A DNA stretch of 38,005 nt from assembly GCA_030147925.1 (NCBI GenBank), contig JASBUK010000101.1, positions 1-38,005 on the forward strand, in the 5' to 3' direction. Under the pieces are notes generated by a model. It did not search any database, had not been told where the DNA came from, and saw only the letters and a list, made by a program, of their open reading frames with translations. This document shows, piece by piece, positions 10,900 to 35,508 of the stretch. The translations under genes and the position numbers were made by a program. Each line of letters opens with the position of its first letter. Position 1 is the first letter of the stretch. This stretch comes from Trueperaceae bacterium (GTDB taxonomy: Bacteria; Deinococcota; Deinococci; Deinococcales; Trueperaceae).

Positions 10900-11211
10900 C
10901 TAAAAAAGACCGCCCAAACCGCCTAGACCACCCATAGCGGCGCCCATTTCGGTTTCCTGCAATTCTTTGGCTTTGCGCTGTGCCTCGTTAACGGCGGCAG
11001 TAACAAGGTCCTCGAGCAGTTCGATATCATCAGGGTCAACGGCTGATTTGTCGATGGTGATTTTAGTGATATTGCCGTCACCGCTGGCGGTTGCCGTAAC
11101 CAGGCCGCCTCCAGCACTGCCCTCAACGCTTAGGTTGGCGAGACGCTCTTGCGCTTCGGCCATTTTCCGCTGAGCTTTTTGGGCTTCTTTCATCATTTTT
11201 TGAATGTTCAT
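10900..11211 (-). CDS. ybaB: Nucleoid-associated protein, YbaB/EbfC family
   Basis: YbaB proteins are small dimeric DNA binders. The protein of about 103 residues starts with MNIQKMMKEAQKAQRKMAEAQ, a helix typical of the family, followed by VEGSAGGGLVTATASGDGNI and the DDIELLEDLVTAAVNEA helix. The tail is Gly-rich and ends GGLGGLF. ATG at 11211 is chosen because AGGAG lies six bases upstream; an ATG two codons earlier (11217) is too close. It follows the dnaX tau reading frame by 20 bases and precedes recR. Confidence 0.92.
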   Translation of the reverse strand: MNIQKMMKEAQKAQRKMAEAQERLANLSVEGSAGGGLVTATASGDGNITKITIDKSAVDPDDIELLEDLVTAAVNEAQRKAKELQETEMGAAMGGLGGLGGLF

Positions 11212-11231
11212 AAGCATCTCCTGTTTACAGT

Positions 11232-11693
11232 TTAGCTGTTGTCTGAAGTTTTGTCTTCATCGGTACCAAAGTCTGCTTCGTTTGCGCTGTTGGTGTTATC
11301 AAAAGCACTGTCAGTGGGGGCAGACTCTTCTTGCCAGTCGATAACTTTGCCGGGGAAGAGGCTTTGCAAAACGGCAAAGCGAGGGTCCTGCGAAAGACTA
11401 CCATGATCAGGGTTGTTTGCTGGCTGTGCAGAGTCGCTTGCCTCAGCTTCTGCTTCCGGTGGTGGCGGTAGCGGCTCACTGTCCCAAAAGTCTGGGGGTA
11501 AGTCTTCTTCCAAATAGCTGCTCGCTGCTTCTTGCGGCGGCCGCATCCGGGTAGCTTGTGTCTGTTGCGGGGGTTTTTTAGGCTCCGTAAGATTTTCGGA
11601 CGGGGTGCTCGTTGCCGGCACTTGCCTTGGCAATTCGGAACTTTGCTTTGTGGCTGCACCCGGAGCGGACTTTTCAGCACACTCCGCTACAGC
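11232..11693 (-). CDS. dnaX: C-terminal extension of DnaX (tau), reached by a -1 frameshift
   Basis: After the dnaX zero frame stops at 11687, the -1 frame stays open from 11693 to 11232 and encodes 153 further residues. They comprise a Pro/Glu/Ser-rich linker, then PDFWDSEPLPPPPE, and a short folded-looking piece DPRFAVLQSLFPGKVIDW, followed by an acidic tail. Such a linker with a compact end fits the tau-specific part of DnaX, which contacts the polymerase alpha subunit and DnaB helicase. With frameshifting at 11699-11693 the full product would be about 636 residues. The segment has no start signal of its own; the first in-frame start-like codon, TTG at 11633, lacks a ribosome site. The join is inferred from the slippery signal. 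Confidence 0.8.
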   Translation of the reverse strand, partial: AVAECAEKSAPGAATKQSSELPRQVPATSTPSENLTEPKKPPQQTQATRMRPPQEAASSYLEEDLPPDFWDSEPLPPPPEAEAEASDSAQPANNPDHGSLSQDPRFAVLQSLFPGKVIDWQEESAPTDSAFDNTNSANEADFGTDEDKTSDNS

Positions 11694-11714
11694 TTTTTTC
11701 GGCTGGCTTCTCCC
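11653..11714 (-). promoter_or_regulatory. Programmed -1 ribosomal frameshift cassette in dnaX
   Basis: On the minus strand the zero frame reads CGA AAA AAG CTG TAG, containing the slippery heptamer A AAA AAG at 11699-11693. CGGGAG lies exactly 10 bases upstream (GGGAG at 11714-11710), like the AGGGAG stimulator of E. coli dnaX. Four bases downstream AGCGGA (11688-11683) pairs with TCCGCT (11669-11664) across a 13-base loop, and GCTG/CAGC can extend the stem. All three elements of the E. coli signal are present. Transcriptional slippage on the run of six A is a weaker alternative. Confidence 0.85.
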
Positions 11715-25578: not shown

Positions 25579-28500
25579 TCACCAGCGATAGCTGACCCCA
25601 AAGCTGAGCGCTTGGCTTTCGCTCGATAAGTCAATGCCAGTCTCAATGCTTAGTTGCGGGGTAAAAGCGTAGCCAAGGGTAGTGCTGAATTCGGTGACCG
25701 GTGTAGCTGCGGCGTCATTTAAGAAATTAAGACGCCCGGATAAGCTAAGTTCCAGCGGGGCCAGATCATAACGCAGGCTAAACTCGTTGCTAAAGGCATA
25801 TTGCTGGTCAGGGTCGCTAAAGCGCCCGATTTCATAACTGGCAAAGACGTCTTCGCTCACATAACCGCCTACACGCAGAGATACACCAAAGGGGTCTTCG
25901 CCGCCGCTGTTAATGAGCGAGCTTAACGATGAGGTGCGAATCTCCAAGAGGTCTACACCCAGAGCCTCACCCAGAACGGTTTGTAATTCCGAAAGTACCA
26001 GTAAATCTACGGCGGTATCGAGCGCGCTTTGCGCCACCGAGCTGGCCAGGCCGCTTTCGCCGATAAGATCGCTGCTCAGCTCGAGCCTTCCCAAGGTGAG
26101 CAAACTGACTAACTCTGCTTGAGTCAGCGGCCTGGGGCCAAGCGCAGCGCCGCTTAACTGTATCAGGGCATTAGTTTGCAAGGTCGGTTCAAGTTTTAAG
26201 CGTCGGGTGTTACTGTCAAGCTCTTCAAATTCCCCGGCTATGATCAGCACGACTTCAAAGCTCGAGCTTTCCCGAGGGCTGGTAAACTCATAAACTTCCG
26301 TTGCCGCGCCGCTTAGCACCTGGGCCTTGTCATAGCTGGTTCGGGCTTCGATAAAAATCAGTGGATAAGCGCCGCGTGAGGGTTCAAAGGTGGCTACCGC
26401 ACTCTCTACGTCGAAATTGCGTCCCGAGAAGCGAAAGTTACCCCGCAAGGCTCGAGCCTCTCCCGTGGCTTCGGGGCTAGCGACACTGCCGCCGAGGCTA
26501 AGGTCTAAACCCAGTTCAGCGCTGCCAAAATTTTCCTGAAAGCGTATTTGCTGTGGGGCTCGCAGCCTAAAATTATCAAAGAGGATGCGTTCATATAGCG
26601 GATTTCGCCTGCTGCTGCGCACGACGATATCCTGTTCGCGCTCTTTTAGCGCAAGTTGGGCCTGTGACGCAAATATATCGCCGGAGAGCAGATAATTGCC
26701 CTCAGAAAACAGCAGCCTCATAGCAACATCGGCTTCGCTTGAGGCAAGATAATAATCGGGCGCCGAAATGTTTAAACCCTCACCGCTTAAGCGCAGATCG
26801 AGTGGAGCCAAGGAGCCGCTAAGCGTAAAGGGACGGCCCAGGACGCCACTGCTGTCAAGTTGCCAGGCTGTGCCGGTCTTGGCTGTTATCTCGCCGCTGA
26901 CATTACTAATGTTGCCAAGCGCAGGAACTGTGGCGTCGCCGCTAAAGCGGAAACTCAAATCGGCGTTTGGGCTAGGCAAAAAGTCCAAGTTGCCGTCACC
27001 GTTTATCTTAAGTTCGCCACCAAGAGGGGAGACGCCGCGTAATAGGGCGCTGGCGCTAAAAAGACTTTCTTGCAAACTTAGTTCTGCTTCATTTAAGCGA
27101 TAGCTCGAGCCGCCTAGCTGCACATCCAGACCCGGGCTGTTAAGCGTTAGGCTGGGCGCGGCCAGCGAACCGCTAGCTTGCAGATTCAAACTGCCCTGAG
27201 CACCGACATCAAAGGCAGCTAAGGGTGGAATCAGTCCTAAAATTGGACTTAAATTAGCTTCGCTGGCTTCGATATTAAACGAGAGCACCTGGGGCGAGAT
27301 TTGTCCACTGGCTTGCCAACTGCCCTCACCCTCAAATTCGGCTAAGTCAACGAGCAGATTACCGTTTTCATAACGGAAGGCCACATCGCCTTGCGTGATA
27401 ACACCGTCGCGCTCGAGCCGGATGCGCTCGCTGGCCAGCCGAATGACACTCTGGCCCGGTGTCGCCAGCGGAATATCAAGCCTGGCGTCGGCAGTGACGA
27501 TAGCGGTTACACCGGAATCGCCAACGATGGCGTCGGCCAGAGCATGCAAGGGAAATTGCTCGAGCTTAAAAAGTCCTGCTAAACGCTTGCCGTCATAGCT
27601 TAGATTCAGGCGGCTGCGGGCGATGTTAGCGCGGATATCGATGCTTGCTAAGCTGCCGTTAAACTCAATTTGGCTGGGTAACTTGCTGTTAAATACGCTA
27701 AGTTCGGGGCTTAAAAACTGTCCGGCCAGACTCTGGCCCTGCAACTGGGCAATGCCGCTTAAAGGTGCGTCCAGATAGGGCAGACGCCGGGCGATAACGG
27801 GTAGGTTTTTTAGATCAAAACCATCAAGACGAAGCTCCGCGCGGCTAAAGTTGCTGGCTTGTGGCAAGAAGCGCTTTTGTAAGTTGCTGGGCCAAACCTG
27901 CTGCCAACCAAGCCCGCCGCTTAAGCGGGCGCTGCCGTCGTCACCGCGAAGCTGAGCAATGCCGCTAAGGCCCCTAGGGTCAAGGTCTAACTGACTGCTT
28001 AGTTTGAGCGTACGCGCCGAGTCGGCAAAGATGGCCAGGTTGTCGATATTCAGCTCGCCTTGCGGGCCAACGCTCTGCTTATAGTCAAGCTGCGCCGTTA
28101 ACTGTCCTGTACCTAAGCTTAAGTCTGCCTCTAACTGGCTCTCAAGTGTCTGGCTATTGAGCTTAAGCCTCAACTCTCCTAACGCAGTTGCTGAATTTAG
28201 CTCAATAGCTGCTCCGGCCACACTGATATCAAAAGGTAAGTCCTTTAGTTCGGTTAACCCGGGCAAAGTCTGGAAATTACTTTGCTCTGCGCCTTGCCAG
28301 CGCCCTTGCAGTAAACCATTCAGGTTATCTTGGCGCTCTAGCTGACCGGAGACTTGGATAGTGCCGGCGTCGCTTTGCCAGGCAAGGTTGTCAAGCTGAA
28401 GCCTTGGCTGCGGTGTAGCCCACAGGGTGACGCTGCCGCTGGTGTTTTCGCTGCCGTAAAAGACCCAGCCGCCCTCTAACAATTCGGGTAACCAGATGCC

Positions 28501-31500
28501 AGGGGCGCTGCTGGGCAGCACCGAAGACAATTCCAGGCCGGGTACGGTTTTAGTGCTGAGGCTTAGCTTAAGCCAGCTGTCGGCTTCCTCGGCAGCCTGC
28601 AAAAGCGCCTGAGCCCAGCCGAAATCAAGCTCGAGCCTACCTAAGCTTTGGAGCTGATCTTGTGCTGAGCGCATGATTCGTAACTGGTTTTCTGCCGTGT
28701 TGCCAATCGTCAGCAATGTGTTGGGCCATAGATTACCACTGATGTCTAAAGGTTTGGCCAGCAAATCCGACACGAATCGCTGCTGTAGACTCAAATTATC
28801 AGGACTAAGGTCGATATTGCCGGAAAGCTTGTTCTCTCCTTGAATTAGCGCCAGTGAACCCAGTAGCCTTGGCCCCAATAACGGGCCTGAAACCGTACCA
28901 CTAAGCTCGAGCCCAACCCCCCTAAGCTCTGCTTCGCTTAAACTAACCCGGCCCTGCCAGCCTGAATCTTGCTGATATTGGGTCTCCAACGCAAATTCCC
29001 CGGGATAGTTAGTCTTGGCTGACAATGATAGCAAACCGTCTTGATATTTAGCAGCAAAGGGCAAGTTGATTGTCTCATCAATAAGTTCAGCCCCTATCTC
29101 ACCACGCAAATCTGCTTGGTTTAGGTCACCCTCCGCCTGAATATTTAGCTCAAGACCTGCTGGCAGCCCAAGGGCAAGCTTGCTTAGCTGCCAGCTAAGA
29201 CCCTGCTGATTAACTAAAACAGCCGCCGCGAGATTTTCACCCTCGATGATGACCCGACGCTCAGTATCTTCAAGGCTCGAGCTAAGCTCTAAATTACCCA
29301 GTGCTATATTGCCAAGACTCAGGTCTGATAAGTTTCCACTTAGCCAGTTTGAGATACCGTCGGCCCAGCTATAGGCAAGCTCGAGCTGCCCCCGATTGTT
29401 GGCCGCTAAGCTGGAGAGGTAACCGCTAAGCCCGGCACGTCGCGCTGAAAAATCTATCGCCAAACGCCAGGTAGCAAGCTTTTCTCGACCTTCTAACAGG
29501 ACTTGCCCAGGCAAGCCGGGGTCGGCAAAAACAAGGCGGTAGCCCCCTAAGCCTAACCCACCCTGGGCCGTTACACCGCTGCTATCATTTAAGATATTTA
29601 TGTCTGAGCTAAAGCCAGCCAGACTCAGATTGCTGCTTAACTGAAGCTCTGCTTGCCGAGGCTTAATAGAAGCCGAAACTTGCCCTTGAGCGCTGCCCTG
29701 AGCATTCAAGCGTAGCTCGAGCTGCGGGTCTGAGAGGCTGCCGGAAAGCTGGAGATTGCCCCCTAGGCCCCAATCGCTGGCCTCAAGACCGAGGCTTTCG
29801 GCCTCTATAAGCCCGGAAAGCGAACCAAGCTGGCCGTTATTTTCACCAATGACCAGTGGCCCTTGTAGACGACCCCGGAGTTGGCTGTTGTTTACAGGGA
29901 TGTCAGCCAGATCAAGATCGAGATTTAAGACCCCGCTTAAACGTTTTTCAAACAGCAAGCTGCCCGAGACGAGACTGTGCGCGCTGGCAAGTGAAAATTC
30001 GGAGACGACTGCGCTAAAAGGCTCGCCCCAGTTTTGTGTAGCGGAGGCCGCGGCGGCTAAACGTGCCGCATTTAATTGCGGTAACAAATTGCTTAGGTCA
30101 AGCTGCTTGGCAGTTGCCTGCGCTTGCCAGCCATTTTGATTTAGGCCTGCGCTTAGGCTAAGCCCGTCACCGGCAAGTTGTGCTCGAGCACCTTGGCGGT
30201 CAAGTTCTACGCTGCCGGCGGCGTTTAAGGCTCCGGCTAACTGTAAAGGTCCGCTAAGCAGTGGCTCAGTCCAGTTACCGTCAATGCCAAGCTGTCCTGA
30301 GAGTGATAATGCTTCACCCGGCCACCAAGTTAAACTTTGACCGTCAATCATCATATCCAACTGACCGCTAATTGTGGGGTCTTGCCAGGGATTGTCACTG
30401 GCGACAAGCTTAAGTTCAGCCACAGTATTGTCCTGATAAAGCGCCTGCCCACTGAGCGCAAGCTGCCCGTCACCCTCGATGCTCAACTTGGCGTTAACTT
30501 GTTCTAGGCCCTGCCACCCGACGGTGGCCGTTCCCTCAAAGCCACTTTCTGCCTGCCAGCTCAAGTTGCTGTCAAGCATAAGATCGGGCTCGAGCAACAG
30601 CGCTCCTTGTGTTTCGAGGCTTTGCAAGCTCAGGCGATTTGACAAAAATGCCTGCAGGTTAAAACTCTGTTGCTGTGCTGCTAAGCGGTAGCCTGCATTC
30701 GTTGCCGCTACCGTAACGGTGCTAACCGGCAAGAGTTCGCCAAGGGCAAGCGTTCCGTTTAAGTCGGTTTCTGGCCAGGCGGTGCCGCTTAGTTTAAGCT
30801 GGGCTAATTCTGCGTCTAATTCAAAGCTTTCAATACTAAACTGCCCTGTGCTTAGCTGGCTGCTCAAGTTGGCCGTAAAGGGTTGCGAAGCTATCATCCC
30901 CGCCGGGATGGTTAGCTCGCTGACAAGGCTCGAGCCTGCCTCTGCTGCTAACAACTGGCCGCGCCACAGCGCCTCGCCCCAGGTAGCCTCCCAAAGCCCC
31001 TGACGGTCTGCTGGGTCAAAGCTGGCCGTTAAGCTTAGCGGCAATTGACGCAGTTGACCTTGCCCCTTAAGGCTAGGCGCAGACGTCCAATCAAGCTCGC
31101 CAGTAAAACTGAACGGGTTGTCTAGTAGGGGATGGTCAACTGTGATCCGGCTGTTTTTTGCCGCCAAGTCACCGTCCGCACGGATATTTGCCCCGGCCAA
31201 GACGCCCTCAATTTGCCAGTTGCTATCCGTTCGGCCAGTCAGTTTAAGGTCAAAGGCATTATCAAGGATTGTACCTGTAGCTGCCAGATCGGCCTCATAG
31301 TTGAATGTCCCTGCCTGATTATCCAAGCTGGCTTGTCCGCTTAGCTCGCCGTTTAGCGCTACGGGCAGTACTGTTGCCAGCATGCTTAGCTCGAGCTTTG
31401 CAAACTCCGCCGATGAGGTAAACGCCGCGCCGTTGCCCATGAGTTGCCAGGGTATGGGTGTGTCTGTGAGTGTCACCGTGCCCTGAGCGCTGTACTTTAG

Positions 31501-34500
31501 GTTTTCTCCCGAAAAGGTCGCCTCTAAGTTTAGGGGCACTGCCTGATAATTACCGTTGCCGCTTAGCTTAAGCTGCCAGACTAGTGCTGCACTAGACTCA
31601 AGATCAGCCTGCAAGCGTCCTGTCTCCAAGCCTGAAACGTCAGGCAACCAAGGATCAGGATCGACTGATAAGGAGGCCTCCAGACCCTGCAAATTGATAT
31701 CTATGGATCCGTTTGCTAAAGGGCCGCTTAACTCGGCGCTAAGCTCGGGTGCAGGTAAGGAACCGCTTAGCTGTGCCGTTAAATTGTGCTCCTGGTCTTT
31801 AAGCCAACCGTTTAAACTCAGGTCTCCCGACCAGAGGCCGTCAACAAGCTTTATGTCCGTGTTGTCGTTGGTAATTTGCAGATTTAGTCCTGTTTGATAA
31901 TTTGCTCGAACTAAGGCGCTTTGTGGCGGGAGTCGCAAAGCCAGCTCTTCGGTTGTGGAGATTTCTGCAGTACTGACTGAACCGACAAATTGAGCTTCAC
32001 GCAGGGGGCCTGTCAAATCACCATTTAGCTCGAGCAAATCATCAAGGGCTCGAGCCGATAGCTTTAAGTCAAAAACTGGCAAGACTTGGCCTGCTAATAA
32101 GGCGGCATAATTTTTAGTCTTGCTATTAGCCTCAAGCAGCAAACTGTCGCCAGCACCCATAAAACTCAAGTTGACGTTGTTAAGTGCATTGGCATTTAGC
32201 TCGCCGCTCCATCGCCCGGCCTGAAAATCAAGTTGGCCGTTTATGGTCACAGCCGTGCCCAGCAAGCTACCAAGGTCAAAATTACCGGCCTTTACGCTAG
32301 CGCTACCTTGCTGCCAGCTAGCGTTTAGCCCCTCGGCGTCGATAGTCGCTGTGACCCTGGCCTGATTACCGCTAATTTCAAGATTTAGTGAGGGCTCAAC
32401 CTCACGCCAGTTGGCGCTGAGATTATAGCTAAAATCACGACTTAGCCTGGCGCTGGCTTGAAGGTCGATGTTTCCTTCTGCTTTGATCTGATCAGAATTT
32501 ATTCCGGCGAAGAGCAAAGCCGCCGGAGTCACACCGGCAAGACGTAAGTCTGCTAGTGAACCCCAGAGTGTAAGCTCGCTGGCTTCATCATCTGACTGGA
32601 GCTTAAGCGCACCCTCGAGGCGTCCGTCTGGATTACTGCTGCTAAATCTCGCATCGGCCTCTAGCTCTGTGCTAAGTCCGGCCCAGGTGGCTGTTTGTAA
32701 TATATCGGCGTCAAGCTGCCAGCCGCTACCAGCCCAGTTTGCCTCTAGCCGAGATTCGCCTACAGATAATCGGGCCTGGGCTTGGGCCATATCGCCTTGC
32801 AACTGCCAGGTTTGTGCTGTGGTATTTAAGCCAGCAACGGCAAATTTGGGCAGCGTTCCGCCCCCGCTGATCTGCCCCTGACTTAGCTCTAAGTCCCCTG
32901 ATTCTCCTAACTTAAGATTGGCGCTAAACTCAGGTAGTAATTGACCAGTCAGGCTAATGTTTTGGCCAAAAAACAGACTGTTTCCTTGCAGCTTCAGGGC
33001 AGAGCCCGCAGCATTTAGCTCGAGCTCTAAGGGTATGCCTGAGAAGTCAGCTACCAGTTGGGCTTGACCCTCGTAGCTGTTTGCTTGCTTTGCTAAATCC
33101 GTCTGGATTTGACCGCTGAGTTCCAAACCCAACGCCTGAGCCAGCGTCGTCAGCGGCAAGCTGCCCTGAGTGCTCCAGCCAGAGTCGGCAAGCTCGAGCC
33201 TGAGGCTTTCTTGGGCATCATTTAGCGTTGCTGAAAACTGAGGGGTAGGGGCGGAATATTTGCCGCTAAGCTCAAGCTCGAGCAAACCCAATAGGCCTGC
33301 AAGCTGCAACTGCTCCTGACCCAAGTCGGCAGTGCCCGAGATGCTGAGGTTCTGAGCCAGAGTCAGCGGCCCCAGTGCCAGACCGGGTTCGCCACTTAGT
33401 AGAATATCAAGCTCAGTAGCGTCACCGCTGAGCCTAAGCTGTCCGTTGTTAACGTCGGTGTTAAGCTCAAGCTCCAAGCTGTCTAAAGGTTGCGTTAGTG
33501 TGCTGGTCAGTTCGCCGCTAATCGCGGCTGTGTTACCGGCTATTTGCAGAGGCGTCTGTTGAAAATTGCTGGTGAGCGCCTGATCATCTACGATGAGCAA
33601 CAGGCCGTTGGTAATATCGCTCAGCCTGATTTGGCCGGTGCTGCTGTTTAGATCGAGCACGGCATCTAAAGCCGGCAAGCCAAAGAAAGCGACTTGCAGC
33701 GGCGATGTTATGAGTCTGCTGCTGGCTATTAGACCTGATTCACTGAGCGTGAGATTGCCTTCTTTAAGACTTATTTCTCCCTTGGTTTGCCCTTCTAAAG
33801 CCGTCTCGGCCAAGCTATAAACCACACGTCCGTCGGTTCCACTTAAGCTTAGCTCGCCGTTTAATGACAAAGCACCAAAACGGCCTTCGATAGCGCTCAG
33901 GCGGCCAGCAGTCAGCGTGGTAGTCAAGTTGCCTCGCAAATCGTTTAAGAGGCGGTTATCTCCAAACTGGAGAAAAAGCGGTTCTACAGCGTCCAGACTA
34001 AGCTCGAGCGGCAAGTTATCCATGGTTCCGTCGGCGCTTAAAGTGGCATCAAGCGGTGTAGAAGCAAAGGGCAGACTGAGGTTTTTTACGTTTGCCTGGC
34101 CCTGCAAGCGGTTGTCTTGCCACAGGAAGTTGCCTTCTAAGCTGCCTGCGAGGGCGTCATTGCCGCTGACGTATAGTTGCAGGCCGTCGCGCCCGAGGCT
34201 GCTCTCGGCACTTAGCGTCAATTCACGCCCCAGCAGCGCCCCGGCTGCTTCAAGTTGCGCTTCTGCCTCAACTAAGTCTTGTCGCCTCTTAAGCGACAAG
34301 TTCAAATCAGCCCCAATGCCAAACAGTTGGGCTTCGCGGGCATTTAGCTCCAGGTTGTAACCCTCAGCTGCGGGCTGCAAACTCAGGCTCAAGGGGCCAC
34401 CCGCAAACAGAGCTTTTGCGTCAACATTACTGCCAAGGCTACTGCTGTAGCCAAAGTTAACACTTAAGTCTTCCAGTGCTTGGCCTGCTACATTGCCCCT

Positions 34501-35508
34501 ACCTTGTGCCTTACCCCTTAGTTCAATAGCTTGCCAACCGGAAAGCTCGAGCATGGTCTCAGCAGTACCGCTGATCGCTAAATTCTCCAGTGAGAAGGGG
34601 GGTTGCTCACCTGCCAGCCAGAGCGCAGTATCAGCTAGTGCCGGATTCCCTGCTACTTTTGCTTGCCACTGGTAGTTAGCTACATCAACTGTGCCTGTCG
34701 CCGACAGCGGCCCGCCCAGAGCTTGGCCGCTCAGCTCGGCGCTGATAAGCGGATAGTTCATGCTAACGATGCCATTAATAGCGGTGATTTGGCTGTTGGC
34801 CAGCAACACCTCGCCGCCGCTCACCCTAAGATCGGCTGAAATCTGAGAGTCCCGCACCGTGACGCTGCCGCTGGCAGTGCCCGACTCGGCTCCGGGCCAC
34901 CAGTGCTGAGCTAGAGATATATCCGCGCGGCTGACTTGGGCGTCAAGTTCAAAGGGATTGACTTTTACGCTTGCCGTTAGTTCCGCCCTGCCTTCGGGGT
35001 TGCTGATTATTCCGCTTAATTCAAGACCATTTAAGCCATTACTGATATCAAGCTCGGAAAGCGACAAATTAGGCAGCGTAAAGGGTGCGTCATTGATGTT
35101 TAGGGCGACATCCTGAATGTCGATATTTTGCAGCACCGGTCGGATGGGCAGACCACCACCGCCTTCACCACTGCTGGTCAGCTCTGCGAAATCAAGCGAG
35201 CCACGCACAGTTTGTGCACTGAGTGACAGGGGTAATTCACCGGCAAATAGCGAGGGCAAGAAATAGCCTATGTCTATACGCTTAAGCTTTAGCTCGAGCC
35301 CCGGCATACTAAGCTCGACTTCGCTAAGCTTAAGCCCTGACCAGAGATTGCCTGAACTGCTGAGATAACGTAAACTCGTGTCAGCCGCTAAATTGCGTGT
35401 AAGCAGCCCTAAAAGCCAGCTTCGTCCTAAAGAAGTCTGCGGGAACAGATAAAGCGCCACTAGACTTGCAGCAAAGATAATTATCGGCAGGAGACGGCGG
35501 AGCTTCAC
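25579..35508 (-). CDS. tamB: Giant TamB-family translocation/assembly protein
   Basis: TamB-type proteins span the periplasm as a long hydrophobic beta-groove thought to carry phospholipids or help outer-membrane protein assembly. The product has 3309 residues, about 2.6 times E. coli TamB. An N-terminal membrane anchor (RRLLPIIIFAASLVALYLF) is followed by about 2900 residues of short alternating beta-strands rich in Leu, Ser, Gly and Ala (repeated LELSG-type phrases). The TamB C-terminal domain comes last, with RNPLYERILFDNFRLRAPQQIRF, LTQAELVSLLTLGRL and a final beta series ending SFGVSYRW, an aromatic end like outer-membrane barrels. I noticed no cysteine anywhere. The start is GTG 35508 without a ribosome site but with TAAAGT 6 bases upstream. 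23 of the GCTCGAGC octamers lie here. No TamA or BamA gene is in the window. Confidence 0.88.
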   Translation of the reverse strand: MKLRRLLPIIIFAASLVALYLFPQTSLGRSWLLGLLTRNLAADTSLRYLSSSGNLWSGLKLSEVELSMPGLELKLKRIDIGYFLPSLFAGELPLSLSAQTVRGSLDFAELTSSGEGGGGLPIRPVLQNIDIQDVALNINDAPFTLPNLSLSELDISNGLNGLELSGIISNPEGRAELTASVKVNPFELDAQVSRADISLAQHWWPGAESGTASGSVTVRDSQISADLRVSGGEVLLANSQITAINGIVSMNYPLISAELSGQALGGPLSATGTVDVANYQWQAKVAGNPALADTALWLAGEQPPFSLENLAISGTAETMLELSGWQAIELRGKAQGRGNVAGQALEDLSVNFGYSSSLGSNVDAKALFAGGPLSLSLQPAAEGYNLELNAREAQLFGIGADLNLSLKRRQDLVEAEAQLEAAGALLGRELTLSAESSLGRDGLQLYVSGNDALAGSLEGNFLWQDNRLQGQANVKNLSLPFASTPLDATLSADGTMDNLPLELSLDAVEPLFLQFGDNRLLNDLRGNLTTTLTAGRLSAIEGRFGALSLNGELSLSGTDGRVVYSLAETALEGQTKGEISLKEGNLTLSESGLIASSRLITSPLQVAFFGLPALDAVLDLNSSTGQIRLSDITNGLLLIVDDQALTSNFQQTPLQIAGNTAAISGELTSTLTQPLDSLELELNTDVNNGQLRLSGDATELDILLSGEPGLALGPLTLAQNLSISGTADLGQEQLQLAGLLGLLELELSGKYSAPTPQFSATLNDAQESLRLELADSGWSTQGSLPLTTLAQALGLELSGQIQTDLAKQANSYEGQAQLVADFSGIPLELELNAAGSALKLQGNSLFFGQNISLTGQLLPEFSANLKLGESGDLELSQGQISGGGTLPKFAVAGLNTTAQTWQLQGDMAQAQARLSVGESRLEANWAGSGWQLDADILQTATWAGLSTELEADARFSSSNPDGRLEGALKLQSDDEASELTLWGSLADLRLAGVTPAALLFAGINSDQIKAEGNIDLQASARLSRDFSYNLSANWREVEPSLNLEISGNQARVTATIDAEGLNASWQQGSASVKAGNFDLGSLLGTAVTINGQLDFQAGRWSGELNANALNNVNLSFMGAGDSLLLEANSKTKNYAALLAGQVLPVFDLKLSARALDDLLELNGDLTGPLREAQFVGSVSTAEISTTEELALRLPPQSALVRANYQTGLNLQITNDNTDIKLVDGLWSGDLSLNGWLKDQEHNLTAQLSGSLPAPELSAELSGPLANGSIDINLQGLEASLSVDPDPWLPDVSGLETGRLQADLESSAALVWQLKLSGNGNYQAVPLNLEATFSGENLKYSAQGTVTLTDTPIPWQLMGNGAAFTSSAEFAKLELSMLATVLPVALNGELSGQASLDNQAGTFNYEADLAATGTILDNAFDLKLTGRTDSNWQIEGVLAGANIRADGDLAAKNSRITVDHPLLDNPFSFTGELDWTSAPSLKGQGQLRQLPLSLTASFDPADRQGLWEATWGEALWRGQLLAAEAGSSLVSELTIPAGMIASQPFTANLSSQLSTGQFSIESFELDAELAQLKLSGTAWPETDLNGTLALGELLPVSTVTVAATNAGYRLAAQQQSFNLQAFLSNRLSLQSLETQGALLLEPDLMLDSNLSWQAESGFEGTATVGWQGLEQVNAKLSIEGDGQLALSGQALYQDNTVAELKLVASDNPWQDPTISGQLDMMIDGQSLTWWPGEALSLSGQLGIDGNWTEPLLSGPLQLAGALNAAGSVELDRQGARAQLAGDGLSLSAGLNQNGWQAQATAKQLDLSNLLPQLNAARLAAAASATQNWGEPFSAVVSEFSLASAHSLVSGSLLFEKRLSGVLNLDLDLADIPVNNSQLRGRLQGPLVIGENNGQLGSLSGLIEAESLGLEASDWGLGGNLQLSGSLSDPQLELRLNAQGSAQGQVSASIKPRQAELQLSSNLSLAGFSSDINILNDSSGVTAQGGLGLGGYRLVFADPGLPGQVLLEGREKLATWRLAIDFSARRAGLSGYLSSLAANNRGQLELAYSWADGISNWLSGNLSDLSLGNIALGNLELSSSLEDTERRVIIEGENLAAAVLVNQQGLSWQLSKLALGLPAGLELNIQAEGDLNQADLRGEIGAELIDETINLPFAAKYQDGLLSLSAKTNYPGEFALETQYQQDSGWQGRVSLSEAELRGVGLELSGTVSGPLLGPRLLGSLALIQGENKLSGNIDLSPDNLSLQQRFVSDLLAKPLDISGNLWPNTLLTIGNTAENQLRIMRSAQDQLQSLGRLELDFGWAQALLQAAEEADSWLKLSLSTKTVPGLELSSVLPSSAPGIWLPELLEGGWVFYGSENTSGSVTLWATPQPRLQLDNLAWQSDAGTIQVSGQLERQDNLNGLLQGRWQGAEQSNFQTLPGLTELKDLPFDISVAGAAIELNSATALGELRLKLNSQTLESQLEADLSLGTGQLTAQLDYKQSVGPQGELNIDNLAIFADSARTLKLSSQLDLDPRGLSGIAQLRGDDGSARLSGGLGWQQVWPSNLQKRFLPQASNFSRAELRLDGFDLKNLPVIARRLPYLDAPLSGIAQLQGQSLAGQFLSPELSVFNSKLPSQIEFNGSLASIDIRANIARSRLNLSYDGKRLAGLFKLEQFPLHALADAIVGDSGVTAIVTADARLDIPLATPGQSVIRLASERIRLERDGVITQGDVAFRYENGNLLVDLAEFEGEGSWQASGQISPQVLSFNIEASEANLSPILGLIPPLAAFDVGAQGSLNLQASGSLAAPSLTLNSPGLDVQLGGSSYRLNEAELSLQESLFSASALLRGVSPLGGELKINGDGNLDFLPSPNADLSFRFSGDATVPALGNISNVSGEITAKTGTAWQLDSSGVLGRPFTLSGSLAPLDLRLSGEGLNISAPDYYLASSEADVAMRLLFSEGNYLLSGDIFASQAQLALKEREQDIVVRSSRRNPLYERILFDNFRLRAPQQIRFQENFGSAELGLDLSLGGSVASPEATGEARALRGNFRFSGRNFDVESAVATFEPSRGAYPLIFIEARTSYDKAQVLSGAATEVYEFTSPRESSSFEVVLIIAGEFEELDSNTRRLKLEPTLQTNALIQLSGAALGPRPLTQAELVSLLTLGRLELSSDLIGESGLASSVAQSALDTAVDLLVLSELQTVLGEALGVDLLEIRTSSLSSLINSGGEDPFGVSLRVGGYVSEDVFASYEIGRFSDPDQQYAFSNEFSLRYDLAPLELSLSGRLNFLNDAAATPVTEFSTTLGYAFTPQLSIETGIDLSSESQALSFGVSYRW

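Follow-up and report, generated by a model that had tools for sequence, protein, structure and literature searches.

The dnaX gene is the textbook case of recoding by two different mechanisms among related genes, and the locus described here raises the question of which of them, if either, would let a reading frame that ends at gamma also give rise to tau. The gene lies on the minus strand of a 38,005-nt stretch of DNA, which was analyzed as a whole and is called the window below. Its source organism is placed in the Trueperaceae (Deinococcota), with Trueperaceae metagenome assemblies as nearest named relatives; a preliminary description, made from the sequence alone, had guessed at Deinococcota, and rightly so. 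Within the dnaX–ybaB–recR cluster, the ATG of ybaB/ebfC (11217) stands 7 nt past the TAA that closes the -1 frame of dnaX. Elsewhere in the window (25579–35508, minus strand), a single open frame of 3309 aa has no Pfam match.

The zero-frame product of dnaX comprises the AAA+ module, the lid and the DnaX_C domain, with Pfam matches to DNA_pol3_delta2 (2e-48), DNAX_ATPase_lid (9.1e-10) and DnaX_C (1.7e-8). Read along the minus strand around the site (ggtccGGGAGaagccagccgAAAAAAGctgTAGcggagtg), the zero frame ends as ggtccGGGAGaagccagccg A AAA AAG CTG TAG cggagtg. The phase CGA AAA AAG CTG TAG sets the heptamer in the zero frame as the pattern X_XXY_YYZ has it; its A run counts 6 A only, and one sense codon (CTG) separates it from the stop. 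The preliminary description had reported a slippery A AAA AAG, a GGGAG exactly 10 nt upstream, a zero-frame stop one codon later and a -1 frame open for 153 codons, and each of these was found again, the heptamer in phase at 11699–11693 and GGGAG at 11714–11710. The features are collected in Table 1.

Table 1. Features of the dnaX recoding site and its surroundings, in positions of the window.
Feature	Positions	Strand	Details
dnaX zero frame, gamma-form DnaX, 482 aa	11687..13135	minus	start ATG 13135, stop TAG 11689-11687
SD-like stimulator GGGAG	11710..11714	minus	10 nt between GGGAG and heptamer; anti-SD pairing
Slippery heptamer A_AAA_AAG	11693..11699	minus	sequence; same position in 31/33 readable family members
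Spacer of 6 nt, one sense codon CTG + stop TAG	11687..11692	minus	NNN + stop constant in 31/31 relatives with the layout
Putative stimulatory stem-loop CGGAGUG/CGCUCCG	11661..11686	minus	fold z = -3.4; helix at +6 kept in 26/30; arms covary
Lower helix CUGUA/UGCAG extending the stem	11692-11688 / 11658-11654	minus	fold, this genome
-1 frame, predicted tau extension, KK + 153 codons	11225..11698	minus	stop TAA 11227-11225; tau ~634 aa
Conserved C-terminal tau motif DPRFAVLQSLFPGKVIDWQ	11306..11368 (approximate)	minus	in the -1 frame of 30/31 genomes
ybaB/ebfC	10900..11217	minus	Pfam YbaB_DNA_bd 3.2e-34; next gene of the dnaX-ybaB-recR cluster

To the extent that the family could be sampled, the arrangement is general. 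The sample comprised 39 Trueperaceae genomes, mostly metagenome assemblies, and the site was readable in 33 dnaX genes; four genes unreadable through the site and two genomes without a usable dnaX match were left out of the count, because contigs end at or near dnaX in several of them. In 31 of the 33 the zero frame ends with NNN-stop right after the heptamer, and this geometry, recurring in at least 15 genera, is far from chance. The heptamers are A_AAA_AAA (17 genomes), A_AAA_AAG (12), G_GGA_AAA (1) and A_AAA_ATA (1). In 29 of the 31 the A run is 6 or 7 long without interruption, and in none is it 8; the exceptions are G002, with 9 A and a weak stem, and G020, with no run beyond 4 A. In G020 (L027 / L037), a single metagenome assembly, G_GGA_AAA replaces the A run at the usual distance from the stem. 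In G014 (L028), A_AAA_ATA leaves only the P-site half slippery, with ATA in the A site and the stem distance unchanged. The cultured species Truepera radiovictrix RQ-24, whose complete genome is published (G012; PMC3072082), carries A_AAA_AAG like the window, and the shift needed for tau is -1 in every dnaX gene with the layout. One further gene, in G061 (L115), has a TGA in frame near residue 61, probably an assembly error. A scan of viral contigs gave a single hit, which was irrelevant.

The two other readable genes have a continuous tau frame: one belongs to the AT-rich G008 (L007), with 9 A and stops nearby in both other frames, and one to G004 (L013), without any A run. In a DnaX tree rooted with sister families, the layout with gamma in the zero frame maps as one gain at the base of the Trueperaceae and two losses, and the nested positions of G008 and G004 mark their continuous frames as later reversions. 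Relatives with one continuous frame had been named in the preliminary description as the case that would speak against a frameshift; within the family this case fails, 31 of 33 genes being two-frame, and it applies to these two genes alone.

A strong stem downstream of the heptamer had also been reported, and it exists, although not in the register given. The folding energy of the 56 nt counted from the heptamer is -23.6 kcal/mol, compared with -14.2 ± 2.8 for shuffled sequences (z = -3.4), and the minimum-energy stem coincides with the register conserved in relatives, beginning 6 nt after the heptamer, within the 5–8 nt looked for; the start at 4 nt reported earlier belongs to an overlapping alternative register. 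Across the family, 26 of 30 genes (87%) have a helix that begins exactly at +6 and counts 5 bp or more, compared with 20–25% of control positions; with the minimum set at 7 bp, the figures are 63% of genes and 4% of controls. Both this count, in which helices were scored by the offset of the outer pair, and the anti-SD scan described below are simple scorings devised for this analysis, with control positions taken within the same genes. Because MAFFT was unable to align the 3' arms, covariation was assessed with an alignment-free permutation in which arms were swapped between genomes: own-genome arms pair at 7.23 of 8, swapped arms at 6.47 ± 0.10 (0/20000 permutations), and the result holds in a thinned set of 19 genomes. 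An uninterrupted stem is missing in G002, G016, G017 and G036. In sister families with 8–9 A, no stem signal was detected at the +6 offset. With NNN-stop following the heptamer and the stem starting at +6, the zero-frame stop always occupies the last three spacer bases before the stem.

The GGGAG of the window, placed at the distance usual for an SD-like stimulator (~10 nt), pairs with the anti-SD at -7.4 kcal/mol, a value that no in-frame window reaches over the ~190 dnaX codons before it. Family-wide, mean anti-SD pairing peaks 6–9 nt upstream of the heptamer, at -5.8 kcal/mol compared with about -2 kcal/mol farther away. The element is weak in about one third of the members, a clear SD is missing in G062, G028, G003 and G011, and the conservation of the SD and of CGGGG could in part be protein-level (GPGG, LTG). 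Conservation of heptamer layout, stem and SD-like element in relatives, which the preliminary description had proposed as a check, is seen for all three, for the SD-like element as the family-wide peak in pairing.

The -1 frame remains open for 78 to 290 codons across the 31 genomes with the layout, and near its end xxLQxLFPGRVxxxE (the LFPG motif) is found in 30 of them; in G035 it occupies a different frame, which probably reflects an assembly indel. In all close-relative pairs tested, substitutions in the tail fall mostly on -1-frame third positions despite the divergence of the tail, a codon pattern that points to constraint on the -1 frame as coding sequence. Profiles of the pre-shift domain and of the tail motif match T. 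aquaticus tau-C (4IQJ) at residues 16–85 (E 7.5e-20) and 139–171 (E 2.7e-6), respectively, so that the shift site separates two portions of the region known to bind the polymerase. When the entire gamma chain was searched against the PDB, only clamp-loader and other AAA+ chains matched. In E. coli tau, the polymerase fingers are bound by the globular part of this region and the polymerase tail domain by the last residues (PMC4703070). By analogy, gamma would here retain the globular part and the shift would add the C-terminal contact, and the tail may strengthen contact with the polymerase. As the zero frame ends at gamma, tau is likely to be missed in automatic annotation of Trueperaceae genomes.

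The signal had been called E. coli-style, and for a ribosomal -1 signal this is strongly supported by comparison. E. coli dnaX has the same A_AAA_AAG, an SD about 10 nt upstream, a stem a few nt downstream, the same -1 direction and a stop directly before the stem, its stop-plus-spacer measuring about 5 nt, compared with 6 nt in the window; signals of the E. coli type shift about 50% of ribosomes in vivo. The output, however, is reversed, which the preliminary description did not state: in E. coli tau is the zero-frame product and gamma results from an immediate stop in the shifted frame, whereas in the Trueperaceae the zero frame is the one that terminates (after 482 aa in the window), the -1 frame has the tau tail, and tau needs the shift. 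A reversed dnaX class was described in 2013 by Antonov (17 genes in 12 genera, according to the main text of PMC3711429), in whose two-ORF genes gamma is likewise in the zero frame and tau follows a -1 shift. Most of those genes, as treated in that text, carry a run of 10 A and were attributed to transcriptional realignment, whereas the Trueperaceae have 6–7 A and a signal covarying family-wide; the long poly-A run (10 A), which is typical but not defining of published reversed dnaX genes, is absent from the window with its 6 A. The dnaX passages of Atkins 2016 (PMC5009743) note, as unpublished, a reversed ribosomal candidate with E. coli-like stimulators in Chlorobium phaeobacteroides. The main-text passages on reversed dnaX in these two papers (PMC3711429, PMC5009743) do not mention the Trueperaceae, and a literature search found no report linking dnaX recoding to the family.

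Taken together, these comparisons make it very probable that the Trueperaceae dnaX gene uses a programmed -1 ribosomal frameshift with reversed output, gamma coming from the zero frame and tau by the shift. Zero-frame translation would yield the 482-aa gamma and terminate one codon beyond A AAA AAG. The downstream stem would hold a share of ribosomes at the heptamer, base pairs between GGGAG and the 16S anti-SD would push them back, and Lys tRNA(s) would re-pair one base upstream (AAA AAA), so that the stop is bypassed. A further 153 codons would then be read, giving a tau of ~634 aa that gains the motif common to the polymerase-bound T. aquaticus tau-C; the efficiency of the shift is perhaps about half. 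Site anatomy, family-wide conservation, stem covariation and the fact that the -1 frame behaves as coding sequence were read from the letters, and from them we infer shifting in vivo and its translational nature. Some observations point the other way, namely the weak SD or interrupted stem in some members, the heptamer of G014, the frame of the motif in G035 and the tRNA-Lys(CUU) gene of the window genome, taken up below. In addition, A_AAA_AAA is reported in the dnaX passages of PMC5009743 to be less shifty in E. coli than A_AAA_AAG, which counts against the ribosomal reading, as 17 family genomes carry the former.

A ribosomal shift could also involve the P site only, with the peptidyl-tRNA slipping on A_AAA and the A-site codon being read anew in the -1 frame; tRNA-Lys(CUU) would then be no obstacle. 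The question of this tRNA arises from a suggestion, made in the dnaX discussion of PMC5009743, that Thermus uses slippage because of a separate tRNA-Lys for AAG, which would hold AAG in frame. Genes for tRNA-Lys(UUU) and tRNA-Lys(CUU) are both present in the window genome and in T. radiovictrix (tRNA-Lys pattern, confirmed with ARAGORN). The CUU tRNA was detected in 9 of the 12 A_AAA_AAG genomes, the window genome included, and its presence does not track AAG versus AAA at the site. Loss of tRNA-Lys(CUU) as an enabler of ribosomal shifting was dropped as an explanation on both counts. If the site works as argued, the CUU tRNA is no absolute bar to shifting at A_AAA_AAG, and P-site slippage before AAG decoding would explain their coexistence. 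G014, which retains A_AAA at the same stem distance with ATA in the A site, also fits this variant, and for one altered E. coli dnaX site, slippage in the P site alone is backed by experiment (dnaX passages of PMC5009743). The A-site codon is, however, also re-pairable (AAA or AAG) in most members, and G020 retains AAA there; slippage confined to the P site is a possible variant, held here with some doubt.

The contrast with Thermus slippage drawn in the preliminary description is borne out in the sister families, most of whose dnaX genes combine 8–9 A with a continuous tau frame. Thermus thermophilus dnaX shares with the Trueperaceae gene the phylum, the location of the site in the protein (directly behind the DnaX_C domain) and the two products; it differs in having nine A, tau in the zero frame and transcriptional slippage, which was reportedly established by Larsen in 2000. 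In Thermus and other relatives with 8–9 A, a stop usually follows within some ten codons in both non-zero frames, and no stem is conserved. The window departs from this pattern, with 6 A, a zero frame that stops, a -1 frame open for 153 codons and a +1 frame that closes after 7. Sporadic reversed dnaX genes with 9–10 A occur in the Thermaceae (L121 (G069), L122 (G077), L123 (G078), L124 (G074), L125 (G095), L126 (G096) and L133 (G107)), with tau in the -1 frame for G077, G078 and G107 and in the +1 frame for G069, G095 and G096; in G074 the contig ends before the tail becomes readable. Both tau directions are as expected if these genes use slippage, which can go either way, with polarity nearly neutral.

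In a Thermus-like programmed transcriptional realignment, RNA polymerase would add an A in the run, and tau would arise when the altered transcripts are translated in the standard way. The 8–9 A at the same place in sister families, the reversed Thermaceae layouts with tau in either frame, and the 9 A with a weak stem of G002 within the Trueperaceae all lend themselves to this account, as does the main text of PMC3711429, where most reversed dnaX genes, arguably including the shorter-run ones, are given to realignment. It is nevertheless highly improbable for the window and its relatives. Ribosomal shifting is favored because the runs are of 6–7 A (6 in the window), the G_GGA_AAA site of G020 still allows tRNAs to slip, -1 is the only direction seen, and the covarying stem and the SD at ribosomal spacing, both absent from the relatives with 8–9 A, have no role in simple poly-A slippage; on these grounds transcriptional slippage was judged less likely as the main mechanism. 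A single shift direction is itself a criterion for ribosomal shifting in the main text of PMC3711429. That no programmed event occurs at all, the second frame stemming from a frame-shifting mutation, from an assembly error in a one-frame gene or from reinitiation at a second ORF, is scarcely credible: G008 and G004 do have one continuous frame, but they are nested in the tree, the -1 frame is coding-constrained, and the frame breaks at an identical codon, accompanied by slippery site and stem, in 31 independently assembled genomes of many genera, the complete T. radiovictrix genome among them. Given this conservation, sequencing error and a pseudogene were rejected.

Judged by these comparisons, the Trueperaceae form a new, well-supported family within the already published reversed dnaX class. 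Two things are new: the layout became fixed at the root of a single family whose relatives use slippage, and it occurs together with a tRNA-Lys(CUU) gene. It seems rather probable that the Trueperaceae ancestor swapped RNA-polymerase slippage (8–9 A, tau in the zero frame) for ribosomal frameshifting and flipped the shift-dependent product, and that G008 later returned to 9 A with a continuous frame and G004 lost the site. With both layouts within one order and a cultured member, T. radiovictrix RQ-24, the replacement of one mechanism by the other is directly testable, as is whether the number of lysine tRNAs decides the mechanism, as suggested before. If the reading is true, tRNA-Lys(CUU) would be shown not to bar ribosomal shifting at A_AAA_AAG, and the Trueperaceae would be a natural experiment in which two recoding mechanisms were exchanged while both products were kept.
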